From the NCBI GenBank assembly GCA_001464895.1, contig LNEE01000017.1, positions 247,815 through 311,814 on the forward strand: DNA of 64,000 nt, given 5' to 3'. This DNA is from Betaproteobacteria bacterium Ga0077532 (GTDB lineage: Bacteria > Pseudomonadota > Gammaproteobacteria > Burkholderiales > Ga0077523). The notes beneath the pieces were generated by a model. That model saw nothing but the letters and a program-made list of their open reading frames with translations, had not been told where the DNA came from and did no database searches. The position numbers and the translations under genes are program-made. How positions within the stretch are numbered: position 1 is the first letter of the stretch; each line of letters opens with the position of its first letter. Shown here piece after piece: positions 5,013-47,373 of the stretch.

Positions 5013-8000
5013 CTACAGCCGCCGACCCAGTTTCCGCGCCACCAGATACTTCAGCGCCTGCAGCACACCCTCGCTGGGTGCCGCCGCTTCCACCGGCGCG
5101 GAGAGCTTCACGCCCTGCGTGAGCGTCGGCAGCTTGATCCTCCAGCTCTCCTCCGCCGTCGGCTGCGGTGCGGCATCGGCCCACGTCGGCGCGCCCTTCA
5201 GGAAGCGCTCCGCGAGTTCGTCCGCCGGGGTGGCGATCCGCATCGCGTTCAAGCGATCCATCGAGGCCGCGAGGTTGAACGCAGTGATGTTCGGGCCGAA
5301 GGTCGTCCGCGTCGCCGAGGTCTGCACCTTGGCCTGTGCCTGCTGCTGCGAGGGCGCCGACGGCCCGGCCACGGCCTGGCCTCCGGGTGCGAGCACAGCG
5401 GTCTGCTGCGTCGCCGGGATGGGCGGGATCTGCGCCTGGTCGAGCGACGCATTGGTACCGCCGCCCAGGATGAACTGCGTCTCCGACACGATCATCGCGC
5501 TGTCGGCCGAAGTGAGGGCCCCGTCGCGATTCACATCCCCGATCAGCCGCGGATCGAAGGTGCGGTAGGCGTCGAAGCCGGTGTCTGCGCCGCCCTCGAC
5601 CCGCGCGACGCGCTGCGCGTCGAGGCTGGTGTAACGGCCGTCGCCGTTGGTGTCGCCGAGGTATGCAACCACGTGGACGCCATCGGCCGCCCGACCCGCA
5701 CGGCCGTCGACCACGACGCCTCCGACGTCGAGCACGCCGGCACTGCGGTACGCGGCCGTCGACGGTACGGAGGCGATGAGCCGCACGAGTTCGCGGCTGC
5801 CCGCCGCAACCGCACTGCTCGTGATGATGCGGATGGCGAGATTGCCGGGCGTGCCGGTCACCGTGAACTGGCTGCCGGCCGGGAGATCGTCGCCGCCCTC
5901 CAGCCCCGCGACGGTGAGCTTGGTCCCGTCGTACTTCAGCGTGAAGCGGATGTCGGACGCGGCCACCGGCGTCGTGAGCGTGATCGGGATGCCTCGTTCG
6001 GTGGCGTCGACGTTCGCGATCTGCTTCGGCCCCACGAGGGTGTGGGCGATCGTGACGACCGGCTGCGTGTTCGGCGCGACGGTGAAGATGGTCCGGTAGT
6101 CGTCGCCCGAGACGTTGTCGCGGTTGCCGTCGAGCGTGCGGCCGAGATCGTCGCGGAAGGCGTTGTCACGGCTGAAGAGGGTCGTCGTGTAACGCCCCGC
6201 AGCCAGCGCGCCGTCGGTGGCGACGAAGCGGAAGCCCTGGCGGTCGGCATCGAGCACCATCGAGCCGCGGACGAGATTCCCGGCGGCGTCGCGGATGTCG
6301 ACGTCGGGGCCACCCAGCGGGACGATGGCACTCTCGTAGAGATTGATGCCGTCGGCGACGAAGGTGCGGCTGAAGCGCACCGAGAAGCCGCCTTCGTTGG
6401 CGGTGAAGTTGGTGACGTAGAGCCGGTCGTTGACGACGTCGACGGTGCGCGTGGCGGCCGACCAGGCGCCGTCCTCGTCGATGGCGCCCACCTGGATCAG
6501 CGGCCGGGTGCCCGGCAGCCGGTACGTGTGGCTTAGTTCACGCACATCGCCCGCGGCGGTCTGCAGCGGCGAGCCGTCGCCCCAGTCGACGATCCACTGT
6601 TGGATGGTGTCGGCACCGGGGTCGGACGACGCGAACTTCAGCACGTAAGGCTGGCCGGACAGCGCGAAGGCCTCGCCCTCGGTGGTGAGCACGGGGGCCA
6701 CGTTGCGCACGAGCACGGCAGCCTCGGTACGCACCTCGGACTCGCCGTCGGACACGACGATCTCGAAGGGGTACGTGGCATCGCCATCGGTGGCAGTCCA
6801 GCGGAATTCGCCGCGGCTGGCGTCGGTGCGGACGATCGTGGCGCCGTCCGGGGCCCCGGCCAGCGTGACGTCGACGACATCGCCGTCCACGTCGTCGACG
6901 GTGAAGCCGATGACCACGCTCTGACCTTCATCGACAACCTGGCGGACGGGATCACCGAAGACGACGGTCGGCGCGTCGTTCACGCCGTCGACGGTCAGCG
7001 TGACGGTGGCGAGGTTGGAATCGACCTCACCGTCGTTCACGCGGTAGGTGAAGGTGTCGGTGCCGAAGAAGTTGGCGATCGGCGTGTAGACGAAGCTGCC
7101 GTTGCCCTGATCCACGAGTGTGCCGTGCTGCGTGGTGTCGACGAGCGTGAAGGTGAGCGCGTCGCCGTCGGGATCGGTGTCGTTGCCCAGAAGACTCGCG
7201 ATGTCGATGGCGAGGCTGCCGTCCTCGTCGAGGCCGCGGGCATCGTCGACGGCCACCGGCGCGCGGTTGGTGCCGTCGGCGAAACCGAAGCGCACGTCGT
7301 CGATGACCACGCGCGACCCGACGGCGCCGAAGCCCAGCAGGTCGAAGTGCAGAACGACACCGTTGGGCGCATCGATGCCGGTGAGGTCGATGGTGAAGGT
7401 GATGGGGTTCGTGACGTCGCCCGGGAGGGCGTCGCCAGCGAGGCCGCCGATGGTGACTGCACTGCTCCGCCGGAGGGTGCCGTCGGCCTGGATGTTGATG
7501 AGCGCATCGGTGTTGGAGAGCGACACCGTGCCCGCCACCGGCAGGCCGGTGACGGCGTCCAGCAGCGCCACTTCGAAGGCGTCCTGCGGGCCCGCGCCCG
7601 GGGTGTCGAAGTCGGCATCGAGGAGCGTGAAGCCGAGTGTGAGCGCACCTTCGGGGATCGCAAACGTCTGCGAGAGACCCGACGTCAGCGCGCGGTCCTC
7701 GGAAAGCGTCGCGACCCCGCCCTGCACGCCTGCGCTGCCGCGGGTGGTCCAGCCGAAGCCGGCCGCGGACGGGTCAGCCACCGAGAACAGGCCGTTGACC
7801 ACATCCGCCGGAATCGTCGGTGTCAGCAAGCCGGGCCCGATGGAAACGGGCACGTCGGCAAATGCCGGATCCGTGAGATCCCTGGCCGCCGCGATGATGC
7901 GTGCCGCCAGTTCGGAGGGCAGCTTGCGCTGGAAGGTCGAGAGGGTCGCCGACATGAGATCGACGCCGTGCGCGGCGGCCTCCAGATGATTGCGATCGTC

Positions 8001-11000
8001 CGCCAGTGCCGCCCGGACGCCCGGCGCTTCGAACACCACGCTGCCGTCGTCCAGCACCCGGACGAAACGGTCGTAGCCCTCGAAGCCGCTGAGGAAACCC
8101 AGCGTGTGACCGACTTCGTGCGCGATGACGCTGAAGAGGTCGATGCGACCGAACGCGGCGGACGCGGGATCGCGGAACTCCGCGTCATCCAGCGGCGTGG
8201 CATCGACGAACCAGCCGTGCCCGTCGGCGTTCCAGTCGAGGACGATGCGGCCTTCGGACGGTGCGCCATCGACGCCGAGGTGGGTGATCCAGGCCTCGCC
8301 GAGCTGGCCATCGGGGAGATCGGCGATGGCCACGCGCAACTCGATCGCTGCCTCACCGAGCTCGTCCCGCCACAAGGACAGCGCGGTGTCGCGCAGCGAG
8401 AGGACCGCGTCGACACTCTCGAGTCCGCGACTCGGTTCGCCGGTCACCCGCACCGACGCGGTTGCATCGACCATCAATGGTGCGCCTCGCTGCGCGGCCA
8501 TCGCGGCAGCGTAGGCATCCTCGCGAATCGTCAGGGACCGGATCGGATTGGCGTTCCACTCGCCAATCGACGGCACGCCCCCTGTCTCCAGCGCCTCGCG
8601 CAATGGCGCCGAGTTCACAAATGGCACGTCGGGGCCATCGGGGCCACCGAACGCCCTGCCATAGGCCCCCATGACCTCCTGCAACTGTTCGAACGACTCG
8701 AAGAAGGCGATTCCCCGGTTCTGGATCTCTCCCATGGATCGGTCGATCCGGGCGAGGCGATCCAGTGTTGCGTTGAACGTGGTGAACGTGTCAGCGCCTT
8801 CTCCGATCGTCTGGAAACGCGTGGTGAACTGCGTGAACGTCGGGTCCTGGATGAACCAACGTTCCCCGAGCTGGCCGATGAGGGTCTGATGGCCTGTGAA
8901 CGTCAGCCGGTTCACGCCGAAGTTCGCTTCGCCGGCGATGATGCCGGGCAGGTGGGACTCGCCTACCAGCGACGCCATGTCACAGTAGCCATACGGAGAT
9001 CCGCAGGCCTCGAACTGACCCTTGAGCGTCCGCGCGTAGTCACCGAGCGCCGATTCGAGCTGCGCCTGGGTCCGCATCGGAATCCCGGCAGGGTCCCAAC
9101 CGGGACTCCACGGCAACCCGCCCTGACTCGCCCGGGCCAACGCACGTACCTCCGCGTTGTTGGACAAGGTCGTCATGCCTGACCCGCCGAACACGTTCAC
9201 CGGCCCCGCTTCGCCGATCTTCGCGATCTTCGCGTTGCTCACGTAGCCACCCTCTCGAGCGCCCATGGTGAAGTGCGCGCCGTGCATGATCGACGCCTCG
9301 CGGTCGCCGGCCTCGATGAGGCGGCGGTTCAGCGGATCCACCACGCGGTCGAGGATTTCCTGATTGCTCAGGAACCGGCCGGTGTTCTTGTCCTTGACCC
9401 ACGCGAGGTCCAGATCGCTGCGCAGCAGGCGGCCGGAGTCGGCGTCCCGCAGCAGCCCGAAGGTCGACTTGGCCTTGATGGCCTCCGGCTTGGCGGCGAG
9501 GCCCCACTTGGTGCCGACCTTGGTGCCGAAGGCAGTGACCGGGTCGGTGGCGCGGATCGCGATCTCGAGCCCCTGCTCGCCCGCGAAGGCCTTGATGACG
9601 TCCTGCTGGCGGGCGGTCGCACCCGATTGCGGCCCGGCAATGCGGGTGGCCACCTTCTTCACCGCATCGCGCGCACCGTCGGCAAGCTCGCCCAGCAGCG
9701 AGACCTTCTTCGGTGTCGGATTGCTGAGCACGCTGCCGATGCCGGTGTACGTCGGCGGATCGATGCCGTGCTGCACCCAGTTGTCGATGTGCTCCCGGGT
9801 CCTGGGCGTCCAGCCCTTCGCCTGCATCTCGTCCCACAGCGGCTTCAGCGCGGCGGCGGTGTCCGCGCGCTTCGCCTGGGCCGCCAGGCGTTCCCCCTGC
9901 ATGGCGGTGACCACCTTCTCGGCGCGCGCGATGCGTTCCGCCCCTTCCGCCGCGGCCTTGGTCGCGGCCGCTTCGACGCGGGAAGCGCGCCCGGACGACT
10001 GGAGCGACTCGACCACCTTGCCCACCGTCTGGCCGACCTTCTTTCCGGCGTCGCTCAGCTTGTCGGCCGCCTTGCCCAGCGCGCCTGCGGCCTTCGCGGC
10101 GGTTTCGGCCAGGGTACCGATGGCCTTCGCGGCCTTGGCGGCGCCGGCGGCAGCCGCTTCCGCCATCAGCGGCCCGCTCGCGAGATTGAGCGCCGCAGAT
10201 CCGAGCAGCTCGGCCGTGTTGAGCGCCCCCTCGATCTTCTTGCCCTCCTTGGCGAGCTGGTTCTGGGTCTTCAGCCAGTTGCTCATGCCGCTCGTGAGCA
10301 GCGCGAAGTTGTCCACGCACGGGTCGCCCAGCTTGTGGGCAAGATCCATGAGGGGGTCCAGCGTGTCCTTCGACAGGCTGTTCGCCCAGCCGCGAAGGGT
10401 GTCGCTGCCGGTGTAGTACGCGGCGGCCTGGAGCGTCGCTGCCGTGGCGGTCTTGCCGAGCCAGGCCACGCCCTCCACCAGGCCGATGGCGCCGGTGACC
10501 AGCCCCTTGCCAAGACCCAGCACCGTGGCGGTGCCCTGCCCTGCGATGTTCCCGGCCGTCTCGCCCGCCACGGCGCCGACGAGATCCTTCATGCCGTAGG
10601 AAAGTCCGAGGAGCATGTTGTTGGCGGTCTCGCCGACGCTGACCCCGCTGAACGTGTTGCCGATCTTCGCCAGGACACCCTCGTTGCCGGTCGGGTCGAC
10701 CATGAACGTCGGGCTGTTGCCGACATAGCGGTACAGGTTGGCATCGCCACCGGCGAAACCGATGGGGTCGGCCGAGGCGAAGCGCCCGAGCCGCGCGTCG
10801 TACCAGCGCGCCCGGTAGTCGAACAGGCCGGCGGAGGCATCGAACTCGCGGCCGGTATAGCTGAAGCGCGGCGCGGCGCCGGGGTCGGTCTGCGCCGCGA
10901 TCGCGCCGAAGGTCGTGAACTGCAGATGGTTCGCCAATGTCCCGTTGGCACGGGCGACGTCGCGCACGGTGCCCTGGTGGTCGGCGAGCATCCACGTGAT

Positions 11001-14000
11001 GTCGCCACCCTGTTGCGCAGCCAGCACCATGTCCGGACCGGGGCCGAACAGGAAGCGCTCCGCCGCCACCGTGGCGCCCCCGTCGAAGACCAGGGCCACA
11101 TGGGCACCGTCGTGCACGAAACGCTCGACGGCGGCGGCACCCGGACCCGCTCCGTCGGCATCCACCGCACGGCGCACCTTGCGATCGAGATCGTCGTAGC
11201 CGTACTGCACGGTCTCGATGGCGACGCCGGCGCCATCGCGCCGCGTGACGCCGATGAGCCGGTTGCGGTGATCCCACTGGTAGTCGGTGACGCCGCCGCC
11301 CGCCTTGGCGGTGGCACGCACCCGGTTGCCCTCGGCGTCGTAGGCGTAGACGAAATCGGCGTCCTGGAGCACGCGGTTGCCCGCGCCGATCGTGACGCCC
11401 GCGCGGAGCGGATTCCCGTTGGCGTCGAACGCGAAGGTCTCGTCGGTCTGGAAGTCGTATCCGGCGGAGATCACCTGATCGAGATCGTCGTACTGGAAGA
11501 CGCTGGCGCCATCGGGCGACGTGACGGAGAGCAGGCGCCCGGCGAGATCCCACGTCTGGCTGTAGCTGGCCACCGGACCGCTCGCATTCGCGTGGGTGAT
11601 GCCGGTGACGCGGCCCGCCGCGTCGTACGCATAGGTGGTGCCGACGGCCCGGCTGCCACCGGAGGCGGCGGCGAATCGGTCGATCGCGGTGATCTGTCCA
11701 GCAGCGTCGTAGCCGATGGCAACCCGCCGCCCCGTGACGTCCGCGCCGGTCTGCACCACGCCCACCACGCGATCCAGGGCGTCGTACGTACGGCTGGTGA
11801 CGCCAGCGGTGCGGGCGCCGATCAGGTCGGTGACGGTGAGCACGTTGCCCACGGCATCGAGCGTGTAGACGAGCGTCACGGCCGGCGTGCCGGCCAGCGC
11901 ATCGGTCTCGACGCGCGTCGTCCGGCCCAGCGCATCGTAGGAGAGGCGCACCACGCCGTCGGGATCGTTCACGGCCGTGAGCTGGCCCGCCGCGTCGAAG
12001 CTCCGCGAGATGCTGCGTACCACGGCATTGCCGGCATCCCGCCAGGTCTCCCCGACCGCGCGGTCGAGCGCGTCGTAGGTGAACTCGGTGGCGCGGCCCA
12101 GCGCATCGACGCTGCGCACCCGGTTGCCGGACGGATCGTAGGCATGCGTGCGCACCGCGCCGAGGGCATCCGTCTCGCGGACGAGACGGTCGACGGCGTC
12201 GTACCCGTAGGCCGTGACGTTCCCGAGCGGGTCGGTCAGCGAGAGCAGGTTGCCGACGACGTCGAAGGCCATCGTCGTGACGGCGCCGAGCGCATCGGTC
12301 GTCCCGACGCGTCGGTTCAGGTCGTCGTAGGCGAACGTCGAGATCCGCCCCAGGGGATCGGTCGTCGATAGCAGGTTGCCGACGGCGTCGTAGCTGGCGG
12401 TCGTACTGGCGCCGAGCGGATCGGTCGTGACCGTGCGGCGGTTGAGCGCGTCGTAATCGAACGCAGTGAGCCGCCCAAGCGCATCGGTGACGGACAACGT
12501 ATTGCCGACGGCGTCGTAGGCGGTACGCACCACCCCGCCGAGGGCATCGGTCGCGGCCACGCGGCGATTCAGCGCATCGTAGGTGAAGCTCGCGGTGCGC
12601 CCGAGGGCATCGGTGGACGACAGGACGTTGCCGACGGCATCCAGGGTGGTGCGCGTGACGCCGCCCAGGGCATCGGTCACCGCCGTGATGCGGTTCAGGG
12701 CGTCGTAGGCGAAGGCCGTCGCGCGGCCCAGCGGATCGGTCACCCGGACGATGTTGCCGGCAGCGTCGTGCGTCGCGACGGTGACGCCACCCAGGGCGTC
12801 GGTGGTCGCGGTGCGACGGTTCAGCGCGTCGTAGGCGAACGTCGTCGTGCCGCCCCGGGCGTCCGTCGTGGAGGTCACGTTGCCGAGGGCGTCGTAGCCC
12901 GTGGTCACGATCGCGCCGAGCGCATCCGTGACGCGGGTCCGACGGTTCAGCGCGTCGTAGGCGAAGGTGGTCTCGCGACCCAGCGCATCGGTGGCCGCGA
13001 CGACATTGCCGAGCGCGTCGTACTCCATCGAAGCCACGCCACCGAGCGCATCGGTGGTGGCCGTCAGGCGATCGAGCGCATCGTAGGCGAACGCGGTGGT
13101 GCGACCGAGTGCATCGGTCACCTCGAGCACGTTGCCGCTCGCGTCGTACGCCATGGTGGCGACACCGCCCAGGGCATCGGTCGTGGTCGAGAGCCGGTTC
13201 AGCGCGTCGTAGGAGAACGCCGTTTCGTTGCCCATCGCATCGGTCGTGAGCAGCACGTTGCCGGCCGCGTCGTAGGTGATCGACGAGACCCCGCCCAGCG
13301 CATCGGCGGACGTGACGAGGCGATCGAGCGCGTCGTACGTGAAGGTGCTCGCGTTGCCGAGTGCGTCGGTCATCGCGAGCACGTTCCCGGCGCCGTCGTA
13401 GGTCGTGGTGGCGACGCCGCCAAGCGCGTCGGTGACCCGGGTCCGGCGGTTCACCGCGTCGTAGGCGAAGGCGGTGACGCTCCCCCGCGGATCGGTGACG
13501 GAAAGCACGTTGCCCACGGCGTCGAACGTCGTGACGTACTCGCCACCCAGCGCGTCGGTGGTCGCGACCTGCCGGTCGAGTGCGTCGTAGGCGAACGCCG
13601 TGGTGCGGCCGAGGGCGTCGGTCATGGCCGTCACGTTGCCCACGGCGTCGTAGAGCATCGACGTCTCGCCGCCCAGGGCATCGGTGGTCTTCGTGACGCG
13701 ATCCAGGGCATCGTGATCGAAGGTCATCGCGCGGCCGAGCGCATCGGTGACCGTCACGAGATTGCCGACGGCGTCGTAGGCGAACGCCGTCTCGTTGCCC
13801 AGGGCATCGGTCACGAGCACGCGCAGATCGCGATCGTCGTACGCGTAGGTCGTCACGCGGCCGAGCGGATCGGTCACCGTCAGCACGTTGCCGGCAGCGT
13901 CGTAGGTGAAGCTCCGCTCGGGCGCGGCGAGCGGGCCGATGCCGTCCGGATCCGGCGCGATCGTGCGCACGAGGCGACCCGCGTTGTCGTACACCTGCGT

Positions 14001-17000
14001 CGTCACCCGGCCGAGCACGTCCGTCAGCGTCAGCAGGTTGCCCGACGCGTCGTAGGTCATCGTGCTGGACGCACCGCGCGCGTCGATCACCTCCACCCGG
14101 CGATCGAGCGCGTCGTAGCCGTACTGCGTGACCCGCCCGAGCGGGTCGGTCGTGCTCACGAGGTTGTCGTTCGCGTCGAAGGCGAAGCGCGTGACGAGCG
14201 CCGCCTGGGGCCCCGCACCGTCCGGGTCCGGCGTCGTCGTCCGGATGCGACGGCCGAGCGCGTCGTACTGGAAGAGGCTGCTGCGGCCGAGCGCATCGGT
14301 CATCGAGACCGTACGGCCGAGGGCGTCGTAGGCAATGCTGGTGATGCCGCCGCGCGCGTCGGTGACCCGCACCTGCCGGTCGAGGGCATCGTAGGCGTAG
14401 CGGGTGGTCCGGCCGAGCGCATCCGTTTCGGACACCCGATTGCCGGCGGCGTCGTAGGCGTAGACCGTGACCGGCGACGCAGCGGCGGCACCGGGCGTGG
14501 ACACCACCGCCGGTTCGTCGATCCGGATGAGGCGGTTCAGGCCGTCGTAGGTGTTGGTGGTGATCCGGCCGAGCGCGTCGGTGCTCGTCCGCACGTTGCC
14601 GACCGCGTCGTACGTGCGGGTGGTCACGCCGCCCTCGGGATTCGTGGTGGTCACGAGTCGGTCGAGGACGTCGTAGGTCATGCCGGTGACGCGCGCCAGC
14701 GGATCGGTGAACGAGATCAGGTTGTCGACAGCGTCGTAGCCGTAGGTCGTGACGGACGACAACAGGGCACCGCCGGCATCGGGATCGGGCTCGGTCATCC
14801 GGATGCGGCGGTTCCGGGTGTCGTACTCGTACGTCGTCACGAACCCGCGCGCGTCGGTGCTGGCCACCACGTTGCCCACGGCGTCGTAGGCGGAGACCAC
14901 CTCCCCGCCCAGCGCATCGGTGGTCCGCACCGCGCGGTTGAGCGCGTCGTAGTGATGGACGGTGACCCCGCCGCGACCGTCGGTGACCGAGACGAGGTTG
15001 CCCACGAGGTCGTAGCCCATGCGCGTGGTCCGAGCCGCGCTGCCCGCGGCGGGCGCCGGTTCGATGGTGCGCACCCGGCGATCCAGCGCGTCGTACTCGT
15101 GCCGGACCACCTGGCCGAGCGCGTCGGTGGTGGTGAGCAGATTGCCGACGAGGTCGTAGGTCCGCGTGAACGTCTCGCCGGCGGCATCGGTGCCGCCCAC
15201 CTGGCGGTCGAGGGCGTCGTACGTGTACGACGTGACCCGTCCGAGCGGATCCGTGCTGGACAGCAGATTGCCGACGGCGTCGTAAGCGAGCCGGGTCACC
15301 GGAGCGGCGTGCGTGCCGACACCGCCGGGCGCCGGCGCGGTGATGCGCACGTGCCGGTTCTCGCCATCCACTTCGAACACGGTCTCGCGGCCCAGGGGAT
15401 CGGTGCTCGACACGAGGTTGCCGACGGCGTCGTACGCCATGCGGGTCACGCCGCCCGCCGCGTCGGTCTCGGTCAGCACGCGATCGAGCGCGTCGTAGGT
15501 GTAGCGGGTGACGCGGCCGAGCGCGTCCGTGGTCGAGGTGTGGTTACCCACGGCATCGTAGGTGTACGCCGTCACCGCGAAGGCTGCAGAGGGCGCGCTC
15601 GAGGTCTTCGGCAAGGACACGGCAAGGCGACGGTTCAGCGCGTCGTAGGTGTAGCTCGTGGTGTTGCCGCGCGCGTCGGTCCGCGACAGGACATTGCCGA
15701 CCGCATCGAAGGTGGTGGCGGTCGTGCCGCCCAGGGCGTCGGTCACCAAGATCCGGCGATCGAGGTCGTCGTACTCGTACTCGGTCGTGCGACCGAGCGC
15801 ATCGACATACGTGAGCACGTTGCCGGCCGCATCGTAGGTCCAGCGCTCCACCGGACGCACGCTCGCAGTGCCCACAGTCACCGCCGGACCGAGCGTACGC
15901 ACCCGGCGCTGCAGCGCGTCGTACTCGTGGTCGGTGACCCTGCCCAGCGCATCGGTCTCGCGGACCACGTTGCCGACGGCGTCGTAGGCCATGACATGCT
16001 GGCCGCCGAGCGGGTCGATCATGTGGGTGCGTCGACCCAGGGCGTCGTAGACGTACCTGGTCTCGCGGCCGAGCGCGTCCACCACCGCCGCGAGGTTGCC
16101 GGCGGCGTCGTAGCGCGTGATCGTCACCGCCGACGTCGCCGGACCGGTGCTCCCGTCGGGATCGGGCGCCGTCACGGACACGATGCGGTTCTGGGCGTCG
16201 TAGGTGTTCGTGGTCACGCGCCCGAGCGCATCGGTGCGCGTCAGCAGATTGCCGACGTGGTCGTACGTGTAGTTGGTGATGGCACCGGCGGCGTCCGTCA
16301 TGCGCACCTGGCGATCGCGAACGTCGTACGCGTAGACCGTACTCCGGCCCAGCGCGTCCACGTGGACCAGCACGTTGCCCATGGCGTCGTAGCCGGTCTC
16401 CGTGACCCCGCCGAGCGCGTCCGTCGCGGAGATGCGGCGGTTCATGGCGTCGTAGCCGTAGGAGGTCGTGCGACCCTCGGCGTCCGTCCTCGACACCAGA
16501 TTGTCCGCGGCGTCGTATTCGAAACTGGTCACCCCGCCTTCGGGGTCGGTGATGCTGCGCAGGCGATCGCGCCAGTCGTAGTCGTAGAGCGTGGTGCGGC
16601 CGAGTTCGTCAGTGACGCTGTCGGGATGACTGCCGCCGTCGGGATCGTAGGTGTAGGTGCGCGTGCCGCCCAGGGCGTCGGTGGTCTTGATCAGCCGGTT
16701 GCGGAGGTCGTACTCGTACTCGGTGGCGTGGCCCAGGGCATCCACCACCTCGCGGAGGTTCTGGTCGGGGCCGTAGATCCACTTCGTGATCGCACCGGTG
16801 GCGTCGGTGCGGCTGACGAGCCGGCTGCGCTCGTCGTAGGCCATGGTCGTGATGGCACCACGCGGATCCACGGTACGGATCTCGTTGCCGGCCGCGTCGT
16901 AGAAGACGTGCGTGACGGACTCGAGCAACGGCCCACCGCCGTCGGGATCGGCCTCGACGGTCTCGACCACGCGATTCATTGCGTCATACGTGAAGATCGT

Positions 17001-35000: not shown

Positions 35001-38000
35001 CGCGGCCTCGTACTGCGCCAGCGCGCCGAGCCCATCGGTGCGGACGCGGCTGCCGAGCACGCGGTCGGAGGCATCCACGACGGCATCGCGGGACAGATAG
35101 ATGCGGTCGGTCCAGGGCCCGACGGCGGACGCGGTACCGGCGTTGCGCACGATCCACTCCACGGTCACCGTGTCGCCCGACGCCGCATCCGCCGGCGCCG
35201 TCATCGCGGTGACGACCAGATCGGGATGGATGATCGCCAAGGCCGCCCCCGGGGCGGACGTGTTGTCGGCGTCGCGCCCCTGCTCGAACACCTGCTCCGC
35301 GGCATCGGTGCGCACGAGGATGCGGAAGCTGCCGTCGATGCTGTCGGGCAGCGCGACATTCGCGGTGCCGACATAGCTCGCTCCCACGGCGAGCGGGGTG
35401 GTGCGCGCGACCTGGCCGATCTGGATCGCGCCGGTCAGCGTGCCATCGGTGGAGAAATAGATGCGGTCGACCCACGGGCCGCGCGCCGCGGCCTCGCCGG
35501 CGTTGGTCACCTCCCACTGCACGGCCACGGACTGCAGCGGCACGCCCTGCGCCGGCGCCGAGACGCTGACGACGCGCAGATCGGGCGCGGGGGAGAGCGA
35601 GACCGCGATGGGGTCCAGGCTCGCCCCGGTGTTGTCGGCCGTGCGGCCCTTCTCGAACACCGCGCCGCCCGCATCCGCGCGGACGAGGATGCGATAGCTG
35701 CCCGAGATGCCCTCGGGGAGCGTGACGGCCGCGGTGCCGGTGTACGTCTGGCCCGGCGCCACGTTGCCGCTGCGCAGCGCCTCGCCGATCAGGACGTCGC
35801 CGGCATCGAGTGCATCGTCGAGCGACAGGTAGACGCGGTCGACCCACGGACCGGTGCCGGTGCCGCTGTCACCGGCATTGCGCACCCGCCAGAGCACATC
35901 GACCCGGTCGCCCGAACTGGCGACGGTCGGCGCGACGACGGCCTCGACACCGAGATCGGCGAACGGCGCGACGAGCGAGATCTCGACGGGTGCGGAGACG
36001 TTGTTGGCGCGCGTGTCGGGTTCGATCACGACGAGCCCGCGATCGGTGCGGACGAAAGCCTGCAGCGTGCCGTCGAACTGCAGCGGCAGCGTGAAGTTGG
36101 CGCTCTGGTCGTAGACCGCGCCCGAGTCGAGCCCGCCGTCGCGCACCCGGGTGGCGACGATCTGGTCATCGGCATTGCCGAACACGGCGTCGCGCGAGAG
36201 CACGACCTCGTCGATCCAGGTGCCCGTGGCTGTTACCGGACCCAGGTTCGTGACGCGCCACGCGATGGTCGCGCTCTCGCCGCCGCGTCCGCTGGACGGA
36301 CCGGTGGTGATGACGGCGCCGAGATCTGCGTAGGTGCGCACCTGCGCGGTGAAGTCCACCGTGGCGCCGTTGTTCGATTCCGCGTTGCCCGCGGCGTTGG
36401 CTTCCAGGACTTCCCGCACAGCGCCGCCACCACCTGCATCGGCGGTGACGGACACCCGGATGGCGCCCGAACCACGCAGGCCGTCCGGCAGCCGGAACGA
36501 GAACACCCGGGCGTGGCTCGCGCCCGCCGCGAGGCTGCCATCCGCGTTCGCATTCGAGTCGTGCAGCACGAGGGTGCTGACGAGCGTCTCGCCCGTGCGC
36601 TGGTTGGTGACGACCACGCGATCGCTCCAGCTCGTGACAACGGGGCGCGTCCCGGCATTGAGGTCGTTCCAGCGCACGACGACGGTGTCGCCCGCGAAGA
36701 CCGACGCATTGTCGATGCGCAGGTCCTGCACCTGAAGATCGGGCGCCGACGCGGTGCGCAGCGTCGCGACGTTGTTGCCCTCGCCGGAAGCGCCGGACGA
36801 GATCTCGAAGAGCACGTTGGTGCTGTCGACGCTCACCACGAACTCGATGAGCCCCTCACCCGCCTGCCCCGCTGCCCAGACGAACGATGCGGAACGCGCG
36901 ACCTGGGCGCCGGGCGCGATGGCGCCGTCGGAGGCGATGCTGCGATCGAAGACCTGCGAGTACAGCGTCTCGCCCGTGGAGACGTTCCGCACCTGCACCG
37001 CCTCGCGCCAGTCGCGATCGGGCGTCCGGGCACCGAGGTTGCCGACGGTCCAATTCAGGTTGACGGTCTGGCCCGCAGCCCAGCCCCCGGGCGGGTCCAT
37101 CGAAAGCCCGGTCGCGAAGAGATCGGAGTACGTGGCGAGGACGGACGTCAGGCGGAGTGTCGACGCATTGTTCGCCTCGGCGTCGCGCGCCGGGTTCTCC
37201 TCGGCAACCGCATTGTCGACGTCGGTGGTGACGATGAAGTCCAGCTCGCCTGCGCCGCTGGGGCCATCGGGCAGCTGCACCGTCGCGCGCCTCGCAACCA
37301 CAGCGCCGGGCGCCAGCACACCGCCCGAATCGGCGAGATCGAACGGGGCGAGCACATTGGCGACGATCTCGCCGGTAGCGACCCGCCGCACGAGCACGCG
37401 CTCGCGGAAGTCGTTGGTGACGTCGCGATTGCCTGCGTTGGTGGTGGTCCACCGCACCTCGACGCTGACGCCCGATGAGATCGGACCCGCCGCCGAGACG
37501 GCTTCGAGATCGGCGACCCGCAGATCGGGACCCGGCCGTGCCTCGAGATTCCCGAGATCGACGGGCGCGGAGGTCGTCGCCGGCCAGACCGCGAACTGGT
37601 AGGCGATGACGCTGCTGCCGTAGTGGCGCCGGCCCTCGAGCGACAGCACGTAGTCGCCCGTCACGTCGAGGGTGCGAAGATCGGCATCGGTGCCGAACGC
37701 GGTCTCGAAGACGAGGCGGCCGAGCGGGTCGTAGAGACGCCACGGCGCGTCGGACGTCGAGACGGACTGCATGTCGAAGTAGTACTGCTCGCCGGCCTCG
37801 ACATGGAAGCGGTACAGGTCGGTCTCGTTGCCGGGGTCGAGCTGGCCGCGCACGACGGTTCCCGGCGTCAGCACCGGGGCCGCTGCGAGGTCGAGCACGC
37901 GGAAGGCGTACGTGCCGGTCTGATCGCCGGAGGCATCGACGGTGAACGTGTAGGTGCCCGCCACGAGATCGAGCACCGACCGACCATCCCAGCCATCGGT

Positions 38001-41000
38001 CGACTGGAACGAGCGACCCGACACGAGCGTGCCAAGCGGACCCGCGAGCGACCAGGTGAAAGCGTTCGAGACGAGACTGTCCACCGACACCCGCGTCGGC
38101 GCTGCCACTGTGAAAGTGTAGCGGTCCACCTGCCCCGCCATCGCGATCGCACCATCGACGCGTTCGTTCAGCGTCATCAGAACGAGGTCGTCCGTGATCG
38201 GCACGACGTTGAACCGGTACGCATTCGTGCCGGTGGCGTAGCGGCGCCCCTCCAGCAGAAGCGTGTAGGTGCCGTCGAACGGCAACGTGGTGCGGTCGCG
38301 GTCGGAAAGCCAATCCTCCCAGACGAGGCGGCCGAACGGATCGAGCAGGCGCCACGGACCGTCGCCGTTGGCGATCGCCTGCATGTCGAAGAAGAAGGCG
38401 TCGCCGGCGTCGGCCTCGAAGCGGTGGAAGGCGGTGCCGTTCGCCGGGTCGAGCACGCCCGCCACGGGCGTGCCGGGCGTGAACGATGGCGCGGTGGCGA
38501 GATCCACCAGCCGGAACGCATAGGCGCCGGTGCGTTCCCCGGGACCGTCGACGGTGAGCCGATAGTCGCCCGCGGCGAGATCGAGCCGGGAGACGCCATC
38601 CCACGAATCGGAACTCGCGAGCGAGCGCTGCGAAACCAGCGTCCCGGCCACCCCGGTCAGCGTCCAGTGGATGTCGGTGTTGCTGAGCGAATCGAAATAG
38701 AGCTGCTTCGCACCATCGAGCGTGAACGTGTACGCATCCACCTGCCCGACGTGATCGATCGCGCCGTCGATGCGCGCGCCGACCTCCAGGGTCTGCGCGT
38801 CGTCCACCACACGCTGGACGTTGAACCGATAGGCATTGGCAACCGTCGCGTAGCGCCTGCCTTCCAGCGCTATCGTGTAGTCGCCCGTGAAGCCGAGCGT
38901 CATGCGCTCCATGTCAGACCCCAGACCGGCCTCGCGGACAAGGCGGCCGAAGGGATCGTAGAGCCGCCACGGACCATCGTGATTCGCCATCGACTGCATG
39001 TCGAGGTAGAACGTCTCTCCGGCGGTGACGGCAAAGCGGTAGAGATCGATCTCGTTGGCCGGGCTCAACGTGCCCGTCACCGGCGTCCCGGGCGTGATGA
39101 GCTGGGCGTTCGAGAAGTCGAGCAGGCGCAACGAGTAGCTGCCGACCGGGCCCTGCAGCCTGAGCTGGTAGGTGCCTGCGATCAGATCGAGCACGTACCG
39201 GCCATCCCAGCTGTCGGTGCTCTGCAGGCTGACCCGGTCAGCGATGACGCCGCGCTCACCGGCGAGCGTCCACTGGATCGGCGTGTCGGACAGGGTGTCG
39301 ACGAGGATCCGCTTGTCCGTGGCCAGCGTGAGGAGGTACGTGTCGATCTCGCCGTTGGCGGAGATGGCCCCGGTGATCAGCGAATCGAGCGCGATCGGAT
39401 CACCGGCGAGATTCGACGGCGTGTTGCCGACGAACTGGACGGCGAATGCGTAGGCGTTCGACCCGCTCGTGGAATAGCGCCGGCCTTCGAGCATCAACGT
39501 GTACGTGCCGCCGATCGGCAGCCGGACGGCCGAGACGTCGTTGCCCATCCCGGTGAAGAAGACGTGCGCGCCGAGCGGGTCGACGAGGCGCCAGTAGGCG
39601 TCACCATTCGTCACCGACTGGTTGTCGAAATTGAACACGTCGCCGGCGTTGGCGACGATCTGGTAGAGGTCGGTCTCGTTCGCGGGGGAAAGCGCGCCCG
39701 TCACGGCGATGCCGGGCGTGACCAATGTCGCCGAAGTGAGATCGCGCAGCCGGAAGGTGTAAGCACCGATGTCGTCGCCGGGCGCATCGATGGCGAGCGT
39801 GTAGTCCCCCGCCACGAGGTCGAGCACCGGGCTGGCACTGCCGAAGTCGACGGAGTCGGCGTTCTGCAGGGTGCGACCGGACGAGACCGTGCCGCGCGGA
39901 CCGGCCAGGCTCCAGGCGAAGTTGCGGTCCGTCTGCGAATCGAACACCACCCGCGTGCGCTCGGTGAGGGAGAACGTGAACCGGTCCACCTGACCGGGCG
40001 AGGCGATGCTGCCGGCCACCAGTGCGTCGAGCGCCATCGCCGCCGTGTCGTCCGCGACGGGCACGACGTTGAAGCGGAACGGATTGATCGCGCGGTGGTA
40101 GTACCGGCCCTCGACGGCGACCAGATAGCGGCCGGTGAGGGCCAGCGTCGTGGCATCGACGTCGTTCGAGACGTTCGTGGTGAACACGACCCGGCCCAGC
40201 GGATCGATGAGGCGCCACGCGGTGTCGTTGTCCTTCGCGCTCAGCGCGTCGAAGAACACGCGATCGCCGGCCACGGCGTCGAACGCATAGAGGGCGGTCT
40301 CCTGCCCGGGCAGCAGCACGCCATCGACGGCCGTGCCGGGGGTGAACATCGTCGCACCCGCCGTGTCGAGCAGCCGCAACGCGTACCGCCCCGTCACGGC
40401 GCCCGGCGAGAACACGCTGAGGACATAGTCGCCCGCCACGAGATCGAGCGGGGTGTGGCCGTTGAAGCTGTCGGCGAAGCGGAGGTCGAGCGACGAGAAC
40501 ACCGCTCCGCGCGGACCCGTGAGGGTGGCACGGAGATCGGCGTTGATCAGGCCGTCGAAGAACACGCGGCGCGCTTCGGCGAGCGTGAAGGTGTACGTGT
40601 CCACCTGCCCTGCCATGGCGATGGATCCGACCACGGCGCCCGGCGCGTCGTCCCCGATGCCGCGGATGTGTCCCGCGAGCGCGCTGGCGCTGCGATCCGC
40701 GACGGACGTGCCGGTGCCCTCGTCCAGCGGCAGCCAGAGCACCAGGCCGGGCTCGTCGCCGGCGAGCGGCGTCGTTGCGGCATCCGCGATCTGGTCCGCC
40801 GTGCGCACCACGTTCCAGAGGCGCACCTCGTCGATGGCGCCGATCAATCCGAACTGGTCCGCGAAGTCCTCGGGATTGTTGCCGATCCAGAGGGGCAGGT
40901 TGTTGAGTGGTGGCGAAGCCTTGCTCGCCGTGCGGGCGCCCCGCTCCACCCCATCGACGTAGAGCCGCATCTGCCCGTTGGTGCGATCGACCACGCCGGC

Positions 41001-44000
41001 GACGCGCGTCCACTCGCCGAGCTTGATCGTCCCGGCGGCGAGTTCGATGTATTCGCTGCCGGTGCCGAACGACAGCAATCCCGAGGCGTTGACCCACAGC
41101 GAGTAGTTGCGGTCGTTCGAACCGGCGCCGGCGCCCTTGTAGACGATCGGGGTCCAGGTGTTGCCGAACGCATCGACCCGGAACACGGCCTCGAGCGTGA
41201 GGTTGCCGCTCTGATCCGTCGCGGCGCCATCCGGAACCTCGATACGGTCCCAGCCGGACATCGACACGGCCGAACCGCCGGACGCGCCCGCCGTCCAGCC
41301 CGCCCGCGGCGACGCGCCGGTGGCGAGATCGATCGCCTCGAGATCGTCCGTGACGGGCAGCAACTGGAAGCTGTAGTTGTTCTGGGCGGTCTTGTAGTAG
41401 CGACCCTCCACGGCGATGGTGTACTCGCCGGAGTAGCCCAGCGTGGTGAGGCCATTGTCGTCGTTGATGCCGCGGGTGAAGACGACGCGGCCGAACGGAT
41501 CGACAAGGCGCCACGAAGTGTCGTTGTCGTTGGCGCCACGGCCGTCGAAGAAGATGCGATCGCCGGCCGTCGCGGTGAAGCGGTAGACATCGGTCTCCGC
41601 ACCGGGCTTCAACGTGCCCGAGATCACCGCACCCGGCGTGAACTCGGTCGCCGCCGCCACGTAGTCGAGCAGGCGGAACCCGAAGGGCCCGATGTTCTCG
41701 CCATCGCCGTCCACGGTGAGGACGTAATCACCCACCGGCAGGTCGAGCAGCGTGAATCCGTTGAAGCTGTCCGCGAAGCGGATGTCCGCACCGTTCACGA
41801 TGGTGCCGAGGGGGCCGGCGAGCGACCACCGCAGCGCGTTGTCCATGAGACTGTCGAACAGGAGCCGCTTCGCTTCGGTCACCGAGAACGTGTATCGCTG
41901 CACCTGGCCGGGATGCGTGAGCAGGTCGTAGATGCCCCCCTCCGCCGGCTCGGCCGCGACCCGCAGGCGCGCGTAGGCACCGCTACCACTGGCATCGAGG
42001 ACATACCGCCCGTCGTCGGGCTGCGGTACATCGTCGGCGCCGGGTACGGGTGTGCCGTAGACGACCATCTCGTTAAGGCCCGCGCTCGAGCCATGCCGCG
42101 ACAGCGCCTCGAAGCGCACGTAGCGCGCCGCCTCGCCGGCGATCGCGAACGACTTGGTGCCGAGCGCGTTGCGCTCTGCGAGCGTGAAGGTGTCGTTCGC
42201 GACATCGCGCCAGGCCACGCCGTCGTCCGAAACACTGATACGGAAGTCCGCGGTGCCGCGATCGAAGTGGCCCTGGTTGTGCGTGTTCTGCACCGTGATG
42301 CGCGAGAGATCGTGGCGCGCCAGCAGGTCGATCACGAAGCTGCCGTTGGTGCCGTCGGGGGTGAGCCAGTACGACACGCGCCCCGGACGCCCGGAGACGT
42401 CCGGGCCGAAGCCGTCCGTCACGTTGGTGAACGAGTACGTCTCGCTGTACGACGCCGTCCCGGTGACGGGCTTGCCGAGCGAGACCGGCGCATCTGCCGG
42501 GTCGAAATTCAACAGCAGCACGAGCCCCGACTCGGCGCCGGTCAGCATCTGCCGCCGCTGGGCGACGATCTCGTCGACCGTCCGCGCGCGGTCCCAGAGG
42601 CGAACCTCGTCGACCGTGCCGACGAAACGCTGCGCTGCGGACTCGTGATTCGCCCCGACGAGCAACGGGAGGTTCACGGAGGGGGCAAGCTTGGCGGTCA
42701 CGACCTCGCTGTCGACGAGGGTGCCGTCGAGATACATCTTCAGCTCGCCGGTCGCGCGCGACACGGTCACCGCGACGTCGTGCCACTGCCCCGACAGGAC
42801 GGAGCCGGCTGCGCTCGCCAGGGACTCGTTGACCGTGCCGTCGTACGACGAGTAGTGCACGTAGCCCTGCCGGTTCACCCACAGCGAGTACGTGCGGTTG
42901 CTGCCGGTGCCCCCCTTGAAGACGAGCGGCATCCAGTCGCCCTGGAAGGCGTCGACCCGGAAGCGCGCTTCGAGGGTCAGGTCGCCGCGCTGATCGAGCG
43001 CGGCGGTGTGCTGCACGTCGAGATAGCTGGCGCCCTCCAACTGCAAGGCGTTCCCGTTCACGCCGGGCACGGTGCGGGGCATGAAGCCCTGGGACTCGCC
43101 GAGGACGATCGGAGTGGTCTGGTCGACCACGGGCACGACGCGGAAGGCGTACGCGTTCGACGTCGTCTTGTAGTACCGCCCTTCCACTGACAGGAGATAG
43201 TCGCCGGTCAGGGAGAGCGTGCGGACGTCCTGGTCGCTGCTCGCGTTCGTCGTGAAGAGCACGCGACCCACGGGGTCGATGAGGCGCCAGGCCGTGTCGT
43301 TGTCCGTGACGCCGAGCGCGTCGAAGAAGAAGCGCTGACCGGCCTCGGCGTGGAATCGGTGGAGCTGCGTCGAGGTCCCGGGATTCAGTCTGCCCGCCAC
43401 GCCGTCGCCGGGGGTGAACTCGATGGCGGTGGCCACGTCGAGCAGGCGGAAGGCATAGGCACCGACCGTGTCGCCGCTGCCGTCGACCGTGAGCACGTAG
43501 TCGCCGGGGCCGAGCGTCAAGCGGGAGAACCCGTTGAAGCTGTCGGACAAGCGGATGTCGCCGCTCGCCACGCTGCCGTTCGGACCGGACAGCGACCACG
43601 ACAGCTGCGTGTCCGTGAGGCCGTCGAACAAGAAGGTCCGTGCACTCGCCAGGCTGAAGGTGTAGCGGTTGACCTGCCCGGGCACTGCGATCTCGTCGAT
43701 GATCGCGCCGGGCGATGCCGTCGCGCGCGTCGTCAGCCGCGAACCCAGGCCGGACGGCCCGGCGTCGGCGATGGACGGACCGGTGGCGCCGTCGAAGGGG
43801 AGGTACAGCACCAGACCGGCTTCGGTGCCCGTCAGGGTGGCATTGCGGGAGGCCGCGATGTCCGCTGTGCTGCGCGCGACGTTCCAGAGGCGGAACTCGT
43901 CGATGGCACCGTTGAACTGGTACGGACCATTGGAGAGCTGGTCGTTGCCGAGGATGAGCGGGGCGTCTGTGGGTTGGCCACGGCCGGGCAGGATGCCCCC

Positions 44001-47000
44001 TGTGGTCAGCGCCGCCTGGACGCCATCGACCACCGCGCGGATCTCGCCGCTGGTGCGATCGATCACACCCGCCGCGTGGTACCAGCGGCCGGCCACGATG
44101 GTGCCCGTGGCAGTGATGGCGCTCTGTGCGCTGGCTGCATCGTGCGTGCCGACCCAGAGCCGTCCGTCGCGATGGACCCACATGCTGTAGGTGCCATTCG
44201 ATGCGCCGTTGCCCTTCAGCGCGATGACGCTCCAGCCATTGCTGCTGAAGCTGTCCACGCGGAACCACGCCTCCATCGTGAGGTCCTGCCGAAGGTCGAT
44301 GGCGGCCGCGTGGTCGATGTCGAGCTGCTCGGTGCCGGGCAGGACGAGCGCCTGCCCGAAGGCGGCGGCCGGACCGGCGGTGAACGACGGCACGAGAAGG
44401 TCTGCGCCGGCATCGATGTCGACGGCGTGCTGCCCGTCCTCGACGCGCCAGAGCTGGAACCGGTACGCGTTCGTCCCCGTGTGATAGTAGCGACCCTCGA
44501 TGAGCACCGTGTACGTGCCGGGGCGCGCGATCACGGGCAGTTCCCCGTCCGTGCCGACGCCGGCCGAGAAGATGTCGTTGCCGTCCGGGCCGATGACGCG
44601 CCAGCGCGTGTCGCCGTTGGCGATCGACTGCATGTCGAGGAAGTAGCGCTCGCCGACCTCGGCCGAGAACTGGTACGCCACCGACGTGTTGGACGGATCG
44701 AGCGTGCCGGTCACGGGGACGTCGGGCGTGAGCGTCGGGGCCTGCGAGAGATCGAGCACGCGGAACCGGTAGGTCGAGAGCGGGCCGGACACCGCGATCG
44801 TGTACGTGCCGGCCGGAAGCGAATAGAGACTCGGACCATCGAACGCGTCGGATGAGCGGAAGTCGCGCCCGGCGTTCACCACGCCCCGCGGCCCGGTCAT
44901 CGACCACGCGAAATTGCTGTTGGTCATGCCGTCGAACGCGACGAGGCGATCGGAGTCCACCGTGAACGTGTAGCGGTCCACGGGCTTGTCGGTGGTCAGC
45001 GTGCCCGAAGTCGTGTCGCCGAGGACGAGCGATGCCGTGGCGATCGGCGTGGATGTCACGCGCAGGTAGTCGATGGCGACGTCGACGGGGGCCAGACGGT
45101 TCGGCGTGCCCATGTACTGCGAAAGCGCCACTCGGAAGCCGTCGGGGAACACGCCCTGCCCCGCCGTGAAGCTGCGGCTCGCGAGTTCGACGCCGGCGTC
45201 GTCGAGGACGCGGGCGCGCATCACGCGGTCGGCGCCGCCCTCCAGGACGAACCGGTACCAGGTGTTGTCCTGCCATGGGAAAGCGCGGTTGTCGCCGCCG
45301 CCTGCGACGGTGCTGCTGCTGGAGAAGCGCCGATCCAGAGCGTTGTTCGAGCCGAAGAAGCTCATCCCGACCCAGCGGTCCGGATTCGCCTGGTCGATGA
45401 GCAGCAGGTCGACGAGACCGTCGATGCCGGTGCTGGCCGATTGGGTCAGCGTGTTGAACCGCAGTTCGACCCGGAACTGGTCGGCGAGCGGCACGACCGC
45501 GTCGGAGGTCCAGCCCACGCGCTGGTTGTTGCCGAGCGTGTTGGTGAGCCGCATCACGGAGGCGCCGTCGAGCGTCTCGAACGTGAAGTTCGGTGCGCCG
45601 ATGTAGCTGCCGTTGTTGCCCGGGAAGCGCGATGCCGCCCATTCGTCGCCGAGCGCCGGCCCGTCGAACTCGTCAACGAAGCCTGGTACCTGTTCGTCGC
45701 GAACGTTGCCGCGCGGCACGAGCTGGAAGGTGAACGAACCCGGCGCCGTGCGATTGGTACGCCCTTCCACCAGCACGAAGTACTCGCCGTCGGCCTGCAG
45801 CGTGACGACGCCGCCGTCCTGCGAGAACTGCTGGGAAGCGAGCTGTGCGCCCCACGGCGTGAGGAGGCGCCAGTAGCCATCGCCAGCCACCGCCGTGAGC
45901 GCGTCGAGGAACACGCGGTCCCCAGCCGATGCATCGAACTTGAAGAGGCGCGTCTCGTTGCCCGGGGTGAGTGCCGCCGTCACGGCCTCGCCGGGCGCGA
46001 TCGTCTCGGCCGACGCGAGGTCCAGCAGGCGGAAGGCGTAGGCGCCCGCGGTGTCTCCCGAGGGGTCGACGGTGACGGTGTACTCGCCGGCGACGAGGTT
46101 CATCACCGGGTTCGTCGCACCGAGATCCACACCGTCGGCGTTCTGGAAGGTGCGTCCCGAGTTCACGGTGCCCAGCGGGCCGGACAGCGTCCACGGCAGA
46201 CCGCTGCTGACGAGCGAGTCGAAGACGACACGGGTCGGCTCGGTCACGGTGAACGTGAATCGGTCGACCTGACCGGCGTGCGCGATCTCCCCGTCGATGC
46301 GCTGGCCGAGGGCGATGGCGACGGTGTCGTCCACGACCGGCTGAACGTTGAACCGGATCGTGTTCGTGCCGCCCTGGAACACCCGCCCCTCGAGGAAGAG
46401 CAGATAGGTCCCCGACACGGCCATTTCCCGGACGTCGACGTCGGTCTGGAAGGCGGCGGACCACACCTGGCGGCCTAGGGGGTCGTACAGTCGCCACGAT
46501 CCGCTGGCCTGCGTCACGGACTGCGCATCGAAGAAGAAGCGGTCGCCGCGGCTGGCCGAGAAACTGAAGACGGTGGTCGAGTTCGCGGGGTCGAGGATGG
46601 TGGTGACCGGGGCCCCCGGCACCAGGGGCTGGGCGTCCGTGGGGTCGAGCAGGCGGAAGGCATAGGTACCGGTGGCGTCGGCGTTGCCGTCCACGCTCAG
46701 CCGGTAGTCCCCCGCGACGAGAGTCATCACCTGGGCACCGTCGGCCACCTCGAACGCGTCGGACTGGTTGAGGGGTCGATTGGTGACCACGGCGCCGCGC
46801 GGGCCGTCCAGGGTCCAGCGGATGTTCGCGTTGTTCGTCAGCGAGTCGAAGTAGACGAAGCGGTCGCTGTCGAGCGTGAAGTTGTAGCGGTCGGTCTCGC
46901 CGGGAGCGTCGATCGACCCGGCGATGCTCGTGATGTCGGCGGCCAGCAGGAGCCGGGGCTCCAGCGCCTCGAACATGGCCTTGCGCTTGAACGGCGGCAC

Positions 47001-47129: not shown

Positions 47130-47373
47130 GGGGTAGGTCTCCGATCGGAGGACTGCCCGCCGTCAGGGCCGGACGCGACGCAGCGCGATGCCGGGGCCAT
47201 GCGGGCGGAAAGTGCAATGAGGGCTGGGACGGCCATGGGAGCGGCAGTCATCATGGGTCGCCGGGAACAGACGGCGGCGTCGCCAGCGGCGGACGCCACG
47301 AGGAAGCGCACCGCGAGTCTCCGCGGGCGTTCGCAGCCAGGGACCAGCGTGACCACGGGGAATCCTGGCGGGG

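Follow-up and report, generated by a model that had tools for sequence, protein, structure and literature searches.

A 14,038-codon LEPR-XLL gene with an embedded RHS block, and a SecA-HlyD gene set as candidate exporter of such giants

How does a Gram-negative cell bring a single polypeptide of about 14,000 residues to its surface? The question is raised by a 64,000-nucleotide stretch of the Betaproteobacteria bacterium Ga0077532 genome (the window, which forms the end of contig C17), where one reverse-strand gene of 14,038 codons encodes a protein with an N-terminal LEPR-XLL leader and an RHS block far along the chain. To our knowledge, the export of single bacterial chains of 8,000-14,000 residues is an open question. 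Based on our genomic analysis, we put at slightly better than even (roughly 0.56) the probability that this is a giant, secreted, surface-displayed LEPR-XLL protein with an RHS-borne variable domain, exported by a SecA-driven exporter of the HlyD/TolC type. LEPR-XLL giants are already known (NCBIfam); the exporter may be new. A preliminary description of this DNA had covered the gene and its modules. Three things are added here: a domain past the RHS core that diverges between orthologs, a second giant that follows the gene immediately, and the export operon linked to LEPR giants.

One gene along 42 kb

The frame is uninterrupted over 42 kb, as the preliminary description held: it starts with ATG and has zero internal stops (5013..47129, reverse strand). 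The good ribosome site and the LEPRxLL leader that it named are likewise present (Table 1). All five alternative frames across these positions hold stops, with longest open runs of 2565 and 2167 residues. In 500-codon blocks over the whole frame, G+C content is 0.85-0.93 at third codon positions versus 0.45-0.54 at second positions. An orthologue search, suggested by the same description, found a collinear ortholog of 14,045 codons at the syntenic position in a congener of a second species (genome G006). The full-length alignment of the two proteins has 12,759 identical residues, with 51 and 44 gap columns. On one flank the matching genes are those for the PEP-CTERM protein, an AI-2E protein (by sequence reading), a GGDEF/EAL protein and a histidine kinase; on the other are the second giant and, farther out, yajC/secD/secF-like genes (by sequence reading).

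Between the two orthologs the nonsynonymous substitution rate (dN) is 0.055 and the synonymous rate (dS) 0.260, and because dN/dS is 0.06-0.32 in 14 of 14 blocks, the frame is one real gene under purifying selection along its whole length. The lower nucleotide identity around residues 1,700-3,750 (63-85% in 50-codon steps from 1,700 to 3,800, with high dS) looks as if an allele had been replaced there. Given that the host assembly is a draft (4.93 Mb in 62 contigs, 89.8% complete), an assembly artefact or misjoin might be thought to have made the long frame. However, an independent genome has nearly the same length, module order and synteny, and the coding signal in the focal frame is even and stop-free; an artefact is therefore extremely improbable, and a misjoined or frameshifted assembly was rejected on account of the G006 ortholog. 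The same near-equal-length syntenic ortholog bears out the view that this is a real gene with orderly modules. The product does rank among the larger bacterial proteins, as the preliminary description said, but it is unexceptional among LEPR-XLL frames, comparable ones having 14,056 (G006), 14,112 (G298), 13,995 (a Rhodoferax metagenome-assembled genome) and 13,956 residues (Ramlibacter).

A gene set accompanying LEPR-XLL giants

The host genome carries two exporter gene sets, on contigs C24 and C51, both outside the window. The C24 set, near a giant of 12,167 residues, encodes a GAF-HlyD protein, a PqqD-M50-HlyD protein and a 652-residue SecA with SecA_DEAD, PP_bind and P-loop domains; a RuBisCO-like gene (Pfam; G000:C24:99625-101328) lies between these exporter genes and the giant, and a related one is found at the same place in G006. 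The other set (L123, G000:C51:18001-38000) directly precedes a giant frame of at least 1,769 residues with DUF4347, LamG and cadherin matches, whose leader reads VEELSPRILFSAD. In G016, contig C31 has the order HlyD, OEP/TolC, GAF-HlyD, PqqD-M50-HlyD and SecA, preceded by a partial RTX-like frame that the end of the contig truncates. SecA is an ATP-driven polypeptide motor and HlyD/TolC a trans-envelope conduit, while PqqD-type domains bind leader peptides and M50 enzymes cut in the membrane. Residues G128, G130 and K131 of the SecA GEGKT motif are invariant in a 15-member alignment, as are H210, E211, H214, N306, P307 and D312 of the M50 part in a 17-member alignment.

The operon tracks the leader across genomes. 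Among 60 genomes of the order, LEPR-XLL was found in 15, namely 11 of the 12 of the host genus (its own included) and 4 of the 48 others. PqqD-M50-HlyD scored at least 480 bits in exactly these 15 and at most 184 bits elsewhere, and a second SecA beside the housekeeping one was present in the same 15 and in none of the 45 others; the congener G005 lacks LEPR-XLL, PqqD-M50-HlyD and the second SecA alike. The association is strong by Fisher's test (2e-14, kinship ignored), and since 11 of the 15 genomes belong to one genus, the contrast is one of five genera versus 44, not of 15 genomes versus 45. In a 369-genome sample of the class, 29 genomes had LEPR-XLL, 30 the operon protein (by a line of 430 bits or more, drawn after the scores were known) and 23 both (Fisher 4e-25). 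The short SecA was detected in at least 23 of the 369, all within the 30 operon-protein genomes and 17 of them with LEPR-XLL; as at most three candidates per genome were scored for the operon protein and the short SecA, SecA misses are likely. As a separate observation, a housekeeping SecA match at G103:C1:2262341-2263876 falls inside an open frame of 24,580 residues, perhaps a masked stretch.

The giants are also physically linked to the operon. An alignment search of the genome collection with PqqD-M50-HlyD returned at least 552 relatives, of which the best 80 were taken as named loci; by their record titles these come from Beta-, Gamma- and Alphaproteobacteria, Desulfobacterota, Nitrospirota, Omnitrophota and Rokubacteria. 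Many of the 80 are cut by contig ends, and they hold SecA in 76 cases, GAF-HlyD in 76, a short HlyD in 58 and a LEPR start or a frame above 1,500 residues in 46 (a simple LEPR pattern, which misses variants, matched 6). Fifty of the 80, hand-picked for long flanks and visible long frames, led to 48 genomes that were searched for LEPR-XLL: 42 had it over the cut-off, and 47 of their 63 LEPR frames exceeded 5,000 residues. A LEPR giant abuts the operon in 31 of these 48 genomes, a fraction biased upward by that choice of loci, and 29 of the 31 giants lie on the same strand, two on the opposite one (binomial 5e-7). Abutting here means a real frame of at least 1,000 residues within 500 bp of the predicted edge, found at 31 of 36 tested loci, with the giant chosen by hand per locus and contig identity taken from agreement of coordinates, not from names. 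Adjacency by coordinates only, which had flagged 36 genomes, was rejected as a measure, some cases being false (in G426 the giant is on another contig).

Among named isolates, the operon abuts LEPR giants in Massilia sp. Leaf139, Dyella sp. OK004, Achromobacter piechaudii and Ramlibacter paludis; the Massilia frame measures 11,426 residues. Four giant starts beside the operon that the pattern missed read LEPR-like, at L161 (FEAMESRILLSAN), L164 (FEAIEPRVMMAAD), L171 (YEELEARLLFSAD) and L194 (LEAMEPRILLAAD); the long frames beside it at L133 and L162 read as non-coding (sense strand only). Any HlyD, the HlyD part of PqqD-M50-HlyD itself counted, occurs in 94 of 96 operon loci.

Linkage, co-occurrence and the conserved motor and protease residues suggest that the parts of this operon together export LEPR giants. 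Under this scenario, the leader and/or the C-terminal end would be recognised by the PqqD-like domain of the inner-membrane PqqD-M50-HlyD protein, and the short SecA motor would push the unfolded chain through a conduit of HlyD-type adaptors and on to an outer-membrane channel of the TolC type. Once outside the cell, the lectin-like, CARDB and Ig stretches would form a long fibre touching particles or other cells, the dockerins of the giant may be tethered by its small PEP-CTERM cohesin-like neighbour, and the RHS shell would sheathe or release the variable Cys-His-Asp domain as an effector. We hold more tentatively, at somewhat below even odds, that LEPR giants including the focal one are the substrates of a new Gram-negative system, in which a truncated SecA would take the place of the ABC ATPase in an HlyD/TolC conduit, the PqqD-fused M50 protein would read and perhaps clip the LEPR leader, and the route would expose a swappable effector sheathed by RHS. 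If true, there would be a secretion route powered by SecA yet built on type I adaptors. As the operon tracks the leader and abuts giants in named isolates, the export question becomes testable by gene removal.

Several observations weigh against export by this operon. The focal gene is on a different contig from either exporter set. Four of the 80 loci are without SecA, one of them contig-cut; L142, L161 (Omnitrophota) and L206 have flanks on both sides of PqqD-M50-HlyD with no SecA within them; LEPR giants are present at L161 and L206. Of the 96 operon loci, only 13 yielded TolC-like genes, two of which Pfam confirmed as OEP. A strong operon protein is missing from 6 of the 29 LEPR genomes of the class sample (none at E 1e-60 in G271 and G135; only 208-388 bits in G235, G342, G282 and G377), and 7 of the 30 operon genomes are without LEPR-XLL. 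A counter-example is seen in the nearly complete genome G271, where a LEPR frame of 7,373 residues (G271:C57:21725) has no exporter protein at E 1e-60. The alignment of the short SecA with solved full-length SecAs ends around residue 604-649 of 778-844, leaving it without their C-terminal 170-240 residues, so that its mode of action may differ; equally, a SecA that keeps the motor and is without this part would fit a partner other than SecYEG. A profile of the WA(K/R)DL tail described below has no match in the focal tail.

Both known export routes have to be weighed against the SecA-HlyD exporter. LEPR giants might leave by general Sec export, with LEPR-XLL as an odd signal, another outer-membrane step and the short SecA merely aiding long substrates. 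The homology of the operon ATPase to SecA is compatible with this, as is the focal leader, which is basic and then LLLSAD-like, its region reaching a best 12-residue mean hydropathy of 1.7 versus 2.3 in the ordinary signal peptide of a neighbour. However, this leader is weakly hydrophobic, and values are low (1.1-1.7) in all six giants compared; a strongly hydrophobic stretch was not found in the first 90 residues of the focal giant. Under general Sec export the HlyD adaptors would also be superfluous, and no SecY-like gene was noticed beside the operon, where no search aimed at SecY was made. We consider this route unlikely. Slightly less likely still is ordinary type I secretion, for example through HlyD, TolC and the ABC transporter encoded at window 53895-56207, the SecA operon being linked for another reason. 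That transporter gene encodes membrane and ATPase domains of the ABC kind, type I systems include TolC and HlyD-type adaptors, many giants ending beside the operon have RTX-like motifs, and at L120 a divergent ABC set is found close to the operon; in addition, a Vibrio LEPR-XLL giant of about 8,000 residues has RTX and serralysin domains, according to PMC10868602. On the other hand, the ABC gene is unmatched in 105 kb around the G006 ortholog (20 kb upstream), ten scanned window frames have no HlyD match, and just 4 of the 96 operon loci show the ABC ATPase pattern, one being the L120 set. RTX-type secretion of the focal protein itself was rejected, as it has zero RTX family matches.

The SecA-HlyD operon thus resembles several known systems and differs from each. 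With type I systems (HlyB-HlyD-TolC) it shares linked HlyD adaptors, a TolC-like gene in some loci and repetitive giant substrates, but its ATPase is SecA-like, not ABC, and the PqqD-M50-HlyD protein is added. As in accessory Sec (SecA2/SecY2), a second SecA is linked to large repetitive proteins; however, the operon SecA is short, has HlyD and M50 partners and, at 386-543 bits versus cut-offs of 725-1100, reached 0 of 4 SecA2 models. The daptide intramembrane metalloprotease (NF041824) matches its PqqD and M50 parts (residues 18-426, 157 bits), but the operon protein stays under the cut-off of 300 and has an HlyD part fused. In the titles and abstract openings covered, with most subscription papers and preprints outside, neither a SecA-HlyD exporter nor a LEPR exporter is described, and the two SecA passages found in PMC8277102 concern SecDF/SecYEG.

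Whether the giants also share a C-terminal signal was considered. Tails of the type W[AV][KR]DL or W..DF...NPNA.LRI are common, the strict W[AV][KR]DL occurring in 15 of 30 tails versus 0.0004 per tail in shuffles. The 30 comprise six giants and 24 C-terminal stretches (32 were fetched, and 8 open to the stretch end were left out), many of them orthologs or paralogs. The tail profile had 21 significant matches, each with its end 0-5 residues before the stop; 20 of them are seeds of the profile, and the remaining one, in the host C37 giant, hardly differs from one of these seeds. The idea of a universal paired C-terminal signal was rejected, and no universal tail is claimed, as the tail is absent in the focal gene, in its ortholog and in the giants downstream of them, and as another LEPR group ends differently. 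In that class (L088, L089 and L090) the ends are LSVGxVLWxLRxGGL...DPLPIL-like and resemble a membrane helix.

The stretch behind the RHS core

The focal giant and its G006 ortholog diverge sharply at one place. In 20-codon blocks, nucleotide identity is 80-100% over residues 12,100-12,640, falls to 67% and then to 32-63% over residues 12,661-12,940 (13 of 14 blocks at or below 52%), and recovers to 80%, 100% and 97% in three blocks beyond. The divergent stretch, about 295 residues with abrupt edges, is reached after a 512-residue linker behind the RHS core, which holds both DPxG motifs (motif at residue 12121). To us, residues 12661-12955 look like an RHS-CT-like variable domain inside the fibre, the pattern resembling RHS-CT exchange. 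With Rhs/YD polymorphic toxins (NF041261, TIGR03696) the protein shares the YD repeats, the core with its two DPxG motifs and, in one ortholog pair only and with the linker between, the variable domain behind the core; the YD block matches Rhs shells of known structure (7q97, 8qja, 8qjb, 8cp6). In contrast to these toxins, the variable domain is not the C-terminus, since about 1,080 residues follow, and it lies inside a fibre of 14,038 residues.

The two versions align at 30% identity with Cys12716, His12747 and Asp12762 in register. We take this pattern to be that of papain- and transglutaminase-like enzymes, which makes it a candidate catalytic triad by motif; the domain may act as an effector. 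Other findings count against an effector: the triad is a motif reading, Pfam, PDB and NCBIfam gave zero matches to the focal version, and no immunity gene was identified, the next downstream gene being a giant and immunity families not having been searched for. Pfam likewise gave nothing convincing for the G006 version.

The RHS block might instead be purely structural, and the divergent stretch a product of fast drift rather than a swapped effector. The chain does run on well past the stretch, only two orthologs are known, and as both variants have the same Cys-His-Asp spacing, they could be alleles of a single domain that have diverged. Drift, however, sits poorly with a fall in nucleotide identity from 85% to about 50% within some 40 codons at one edge and a rise from 52% to 100% within some 40 codons at the other, in the usual place of an RHS-CT. 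Among the 60 relatives, moreover, orphan copies of the domain were not found, and beyond the ortholog pair either variant is matched solely along the edge that it has in common with the metallopeptidase part. We therefore regard drift as rather unlikely, though the likeliest of the rival explanations considered here. If a swapped domain is indeed embedded with RHS, polymorphic effectors can ride inside adhesin fibres.

Modules, sister giants and neighbouring genes

Apart from the RHS block, the modules of the focal protein are domains of binding and spacer type (Table 1). The lectin-like modules of the preliminary description are three LamG modules and one F5/8C module, which sit with an SO2946-like domain within the PPC-like stretch, and its 17 CARDB repeats were recovered as 17 copies by self-profile. 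Few profiles match around residues 5,500-6,800. An Ig part follows dockerin 1, and Ig and PKD parts lie between the metzincin-like stretch and the cohesin-like module. Other claims stand in part. Of two RHS blocks, one is a large YD block with a core, taking 48 of the 49 YD profile matches, and the other is minimal. The enzyme-like modules come down to a lactonase-type beta-propeller match at residues 9012-9113, an HExxHxxG motif with a sub-cut-off Peptidase_M10 match and the Cys-His-Asp region. There is a dockerin-like module near the end, just under the cut-off, but a tail of 158 residues comes after it. The judgement that an RHS cage within a fibre is unusual agrees with our survey, as among six complete LEPR giants YD and RHS-core patterns occur only in the focal gene and its ortholog. 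Compared with LEPR-XLL giants as a family (NF012209, 'LEPR-8K', by its one-line description), the focal protein has the same N-terminal motif over the cut-off, giant length and repetitive beta-sandwich content, and adds the RHS block with its core and the variable domain.

Table 1. Features of the window, with residue ranges (aa) of the focal protein
Feature	Window positions	Strand	Basis
LEPR-XLL giant gene, 14,038 codons	5013..47129	-	open frame; 14,045-aa ortholog in G006
GGAG, ribosome-binding-like site, 9 nt 5' of ATG	47139..47142	-	sequence reading
LEPR-XLL leader, aa 52-73	46911..46976	-	NF012209, 26.2 bits vs cut-off 17
20 PPC-like beta-sandwich repeats, aa 68-3183	37581..46928	-	self-profile iteration
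LamG-like lectin module 1, aa 936-1092	43854..44324	-	PF13385 and self-profile
LamG-like lectin module 2, aa 1370-1521	42567..43022	-	profile match and self-profile
F5/8 type C module, aa 1561-1681	42087..42449	-	PF00754
LamG-like lectin module 3, aa 1964-2115	40785..41240	-	profile match and self-profile
17 CARDB repeats, aa 3201-5389	30963..37529	-	PF07705; copy number by self-profile
Nine He_PIG/Big_9 Ig repeats, aa 6824-7659	24153..26660	-	profile matches and self-profile
Minimal first RHS stretch	22776..23513	-	DUF6531 under cut-off (aa 7873-7911), one YD repeat (aa 8082-8118)
Dockerin 1, aa 8244-8296	22242..22400	-	PF00404 over cut-off
RHS/YD repeat block, aa 9709-11962	11244..18005	-	PF05593, 48 stretches; solved Rhs shells match
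RHS-associated core, aa 12072-12148	10686..10916	-	TIGR03696, 74.7 bits vs 32.5
Variable RHS-CT-like domain, aa 12661-12955	8265..9149	-	nucleotide identity drop between orthologs
Metzincin-like stretch, HEVGHTLG (HExxHxxG) at aa 13004	7710..8264	-	motif; Peptidase_M10 E=0.005, under cut-off
Cohesin-like module, aa 13714-13807	5709..5990	-	PF00963, 22.4 bits vs 24.1, just under cut-off
Dockerin-like module 2, aa 13824-13880	5490..5660	-	PF00404, 21.2 bits vs 22.9, just under cut-off
C-terminal tail, 158 residues, aa 13881-14038	5016..5489	-	basic end common to downstream giant
Second LEPR-XLL giant, first 1,447 codons (10,325 aa whole)	2..4342	-	profile match; extends beyond window
Small PEP-CTERM protein, directly upstream	47797..48387	-	cohesin match under cut-off

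The host genome has four LEPR-XLL frames, of 14,049, 10,332, 12,182 and 8,112 codons stop to stop, which together take up some 134 kb (2.7%) of the assembly. The downstream giant (G000:C17:221179-252156) is co-directional with the focal gene and has a similar basic C-terminal end; its frame is cysteine-free. The Massilia sp. Leaf139 giant (L164) has the leader and PPC-like repeats in common with the focal protein, at 33-35% identity over about 900 residues with the repeats partly out of register. A PEP-CTERM protein 52% identical to the upstream neighbour likewise precedes the ortholog in G006, and PEP-CTERM-like ends were seen near LEPR starts at L030, L038 and L044 (pattern only). Giant bacterial proteins as such are already known, as passages of PMC11573180 attest. 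A Lake Baikal study (PMC9611531) names a Limnohabitans LEPR-XLL protein among its transcript matches, which makes expression of such a gene in the lake probable.

Elsewhere in the window, cyanophycin-synthase-like N-terminal and ATP-grasp domains are encoded at 56450-58672, adjoining the ABC transporter gene. At the contig end (63249-64000) lies an array of repeats of about 129 bp with a palindromic core, which probably explains why the assembly stops there.

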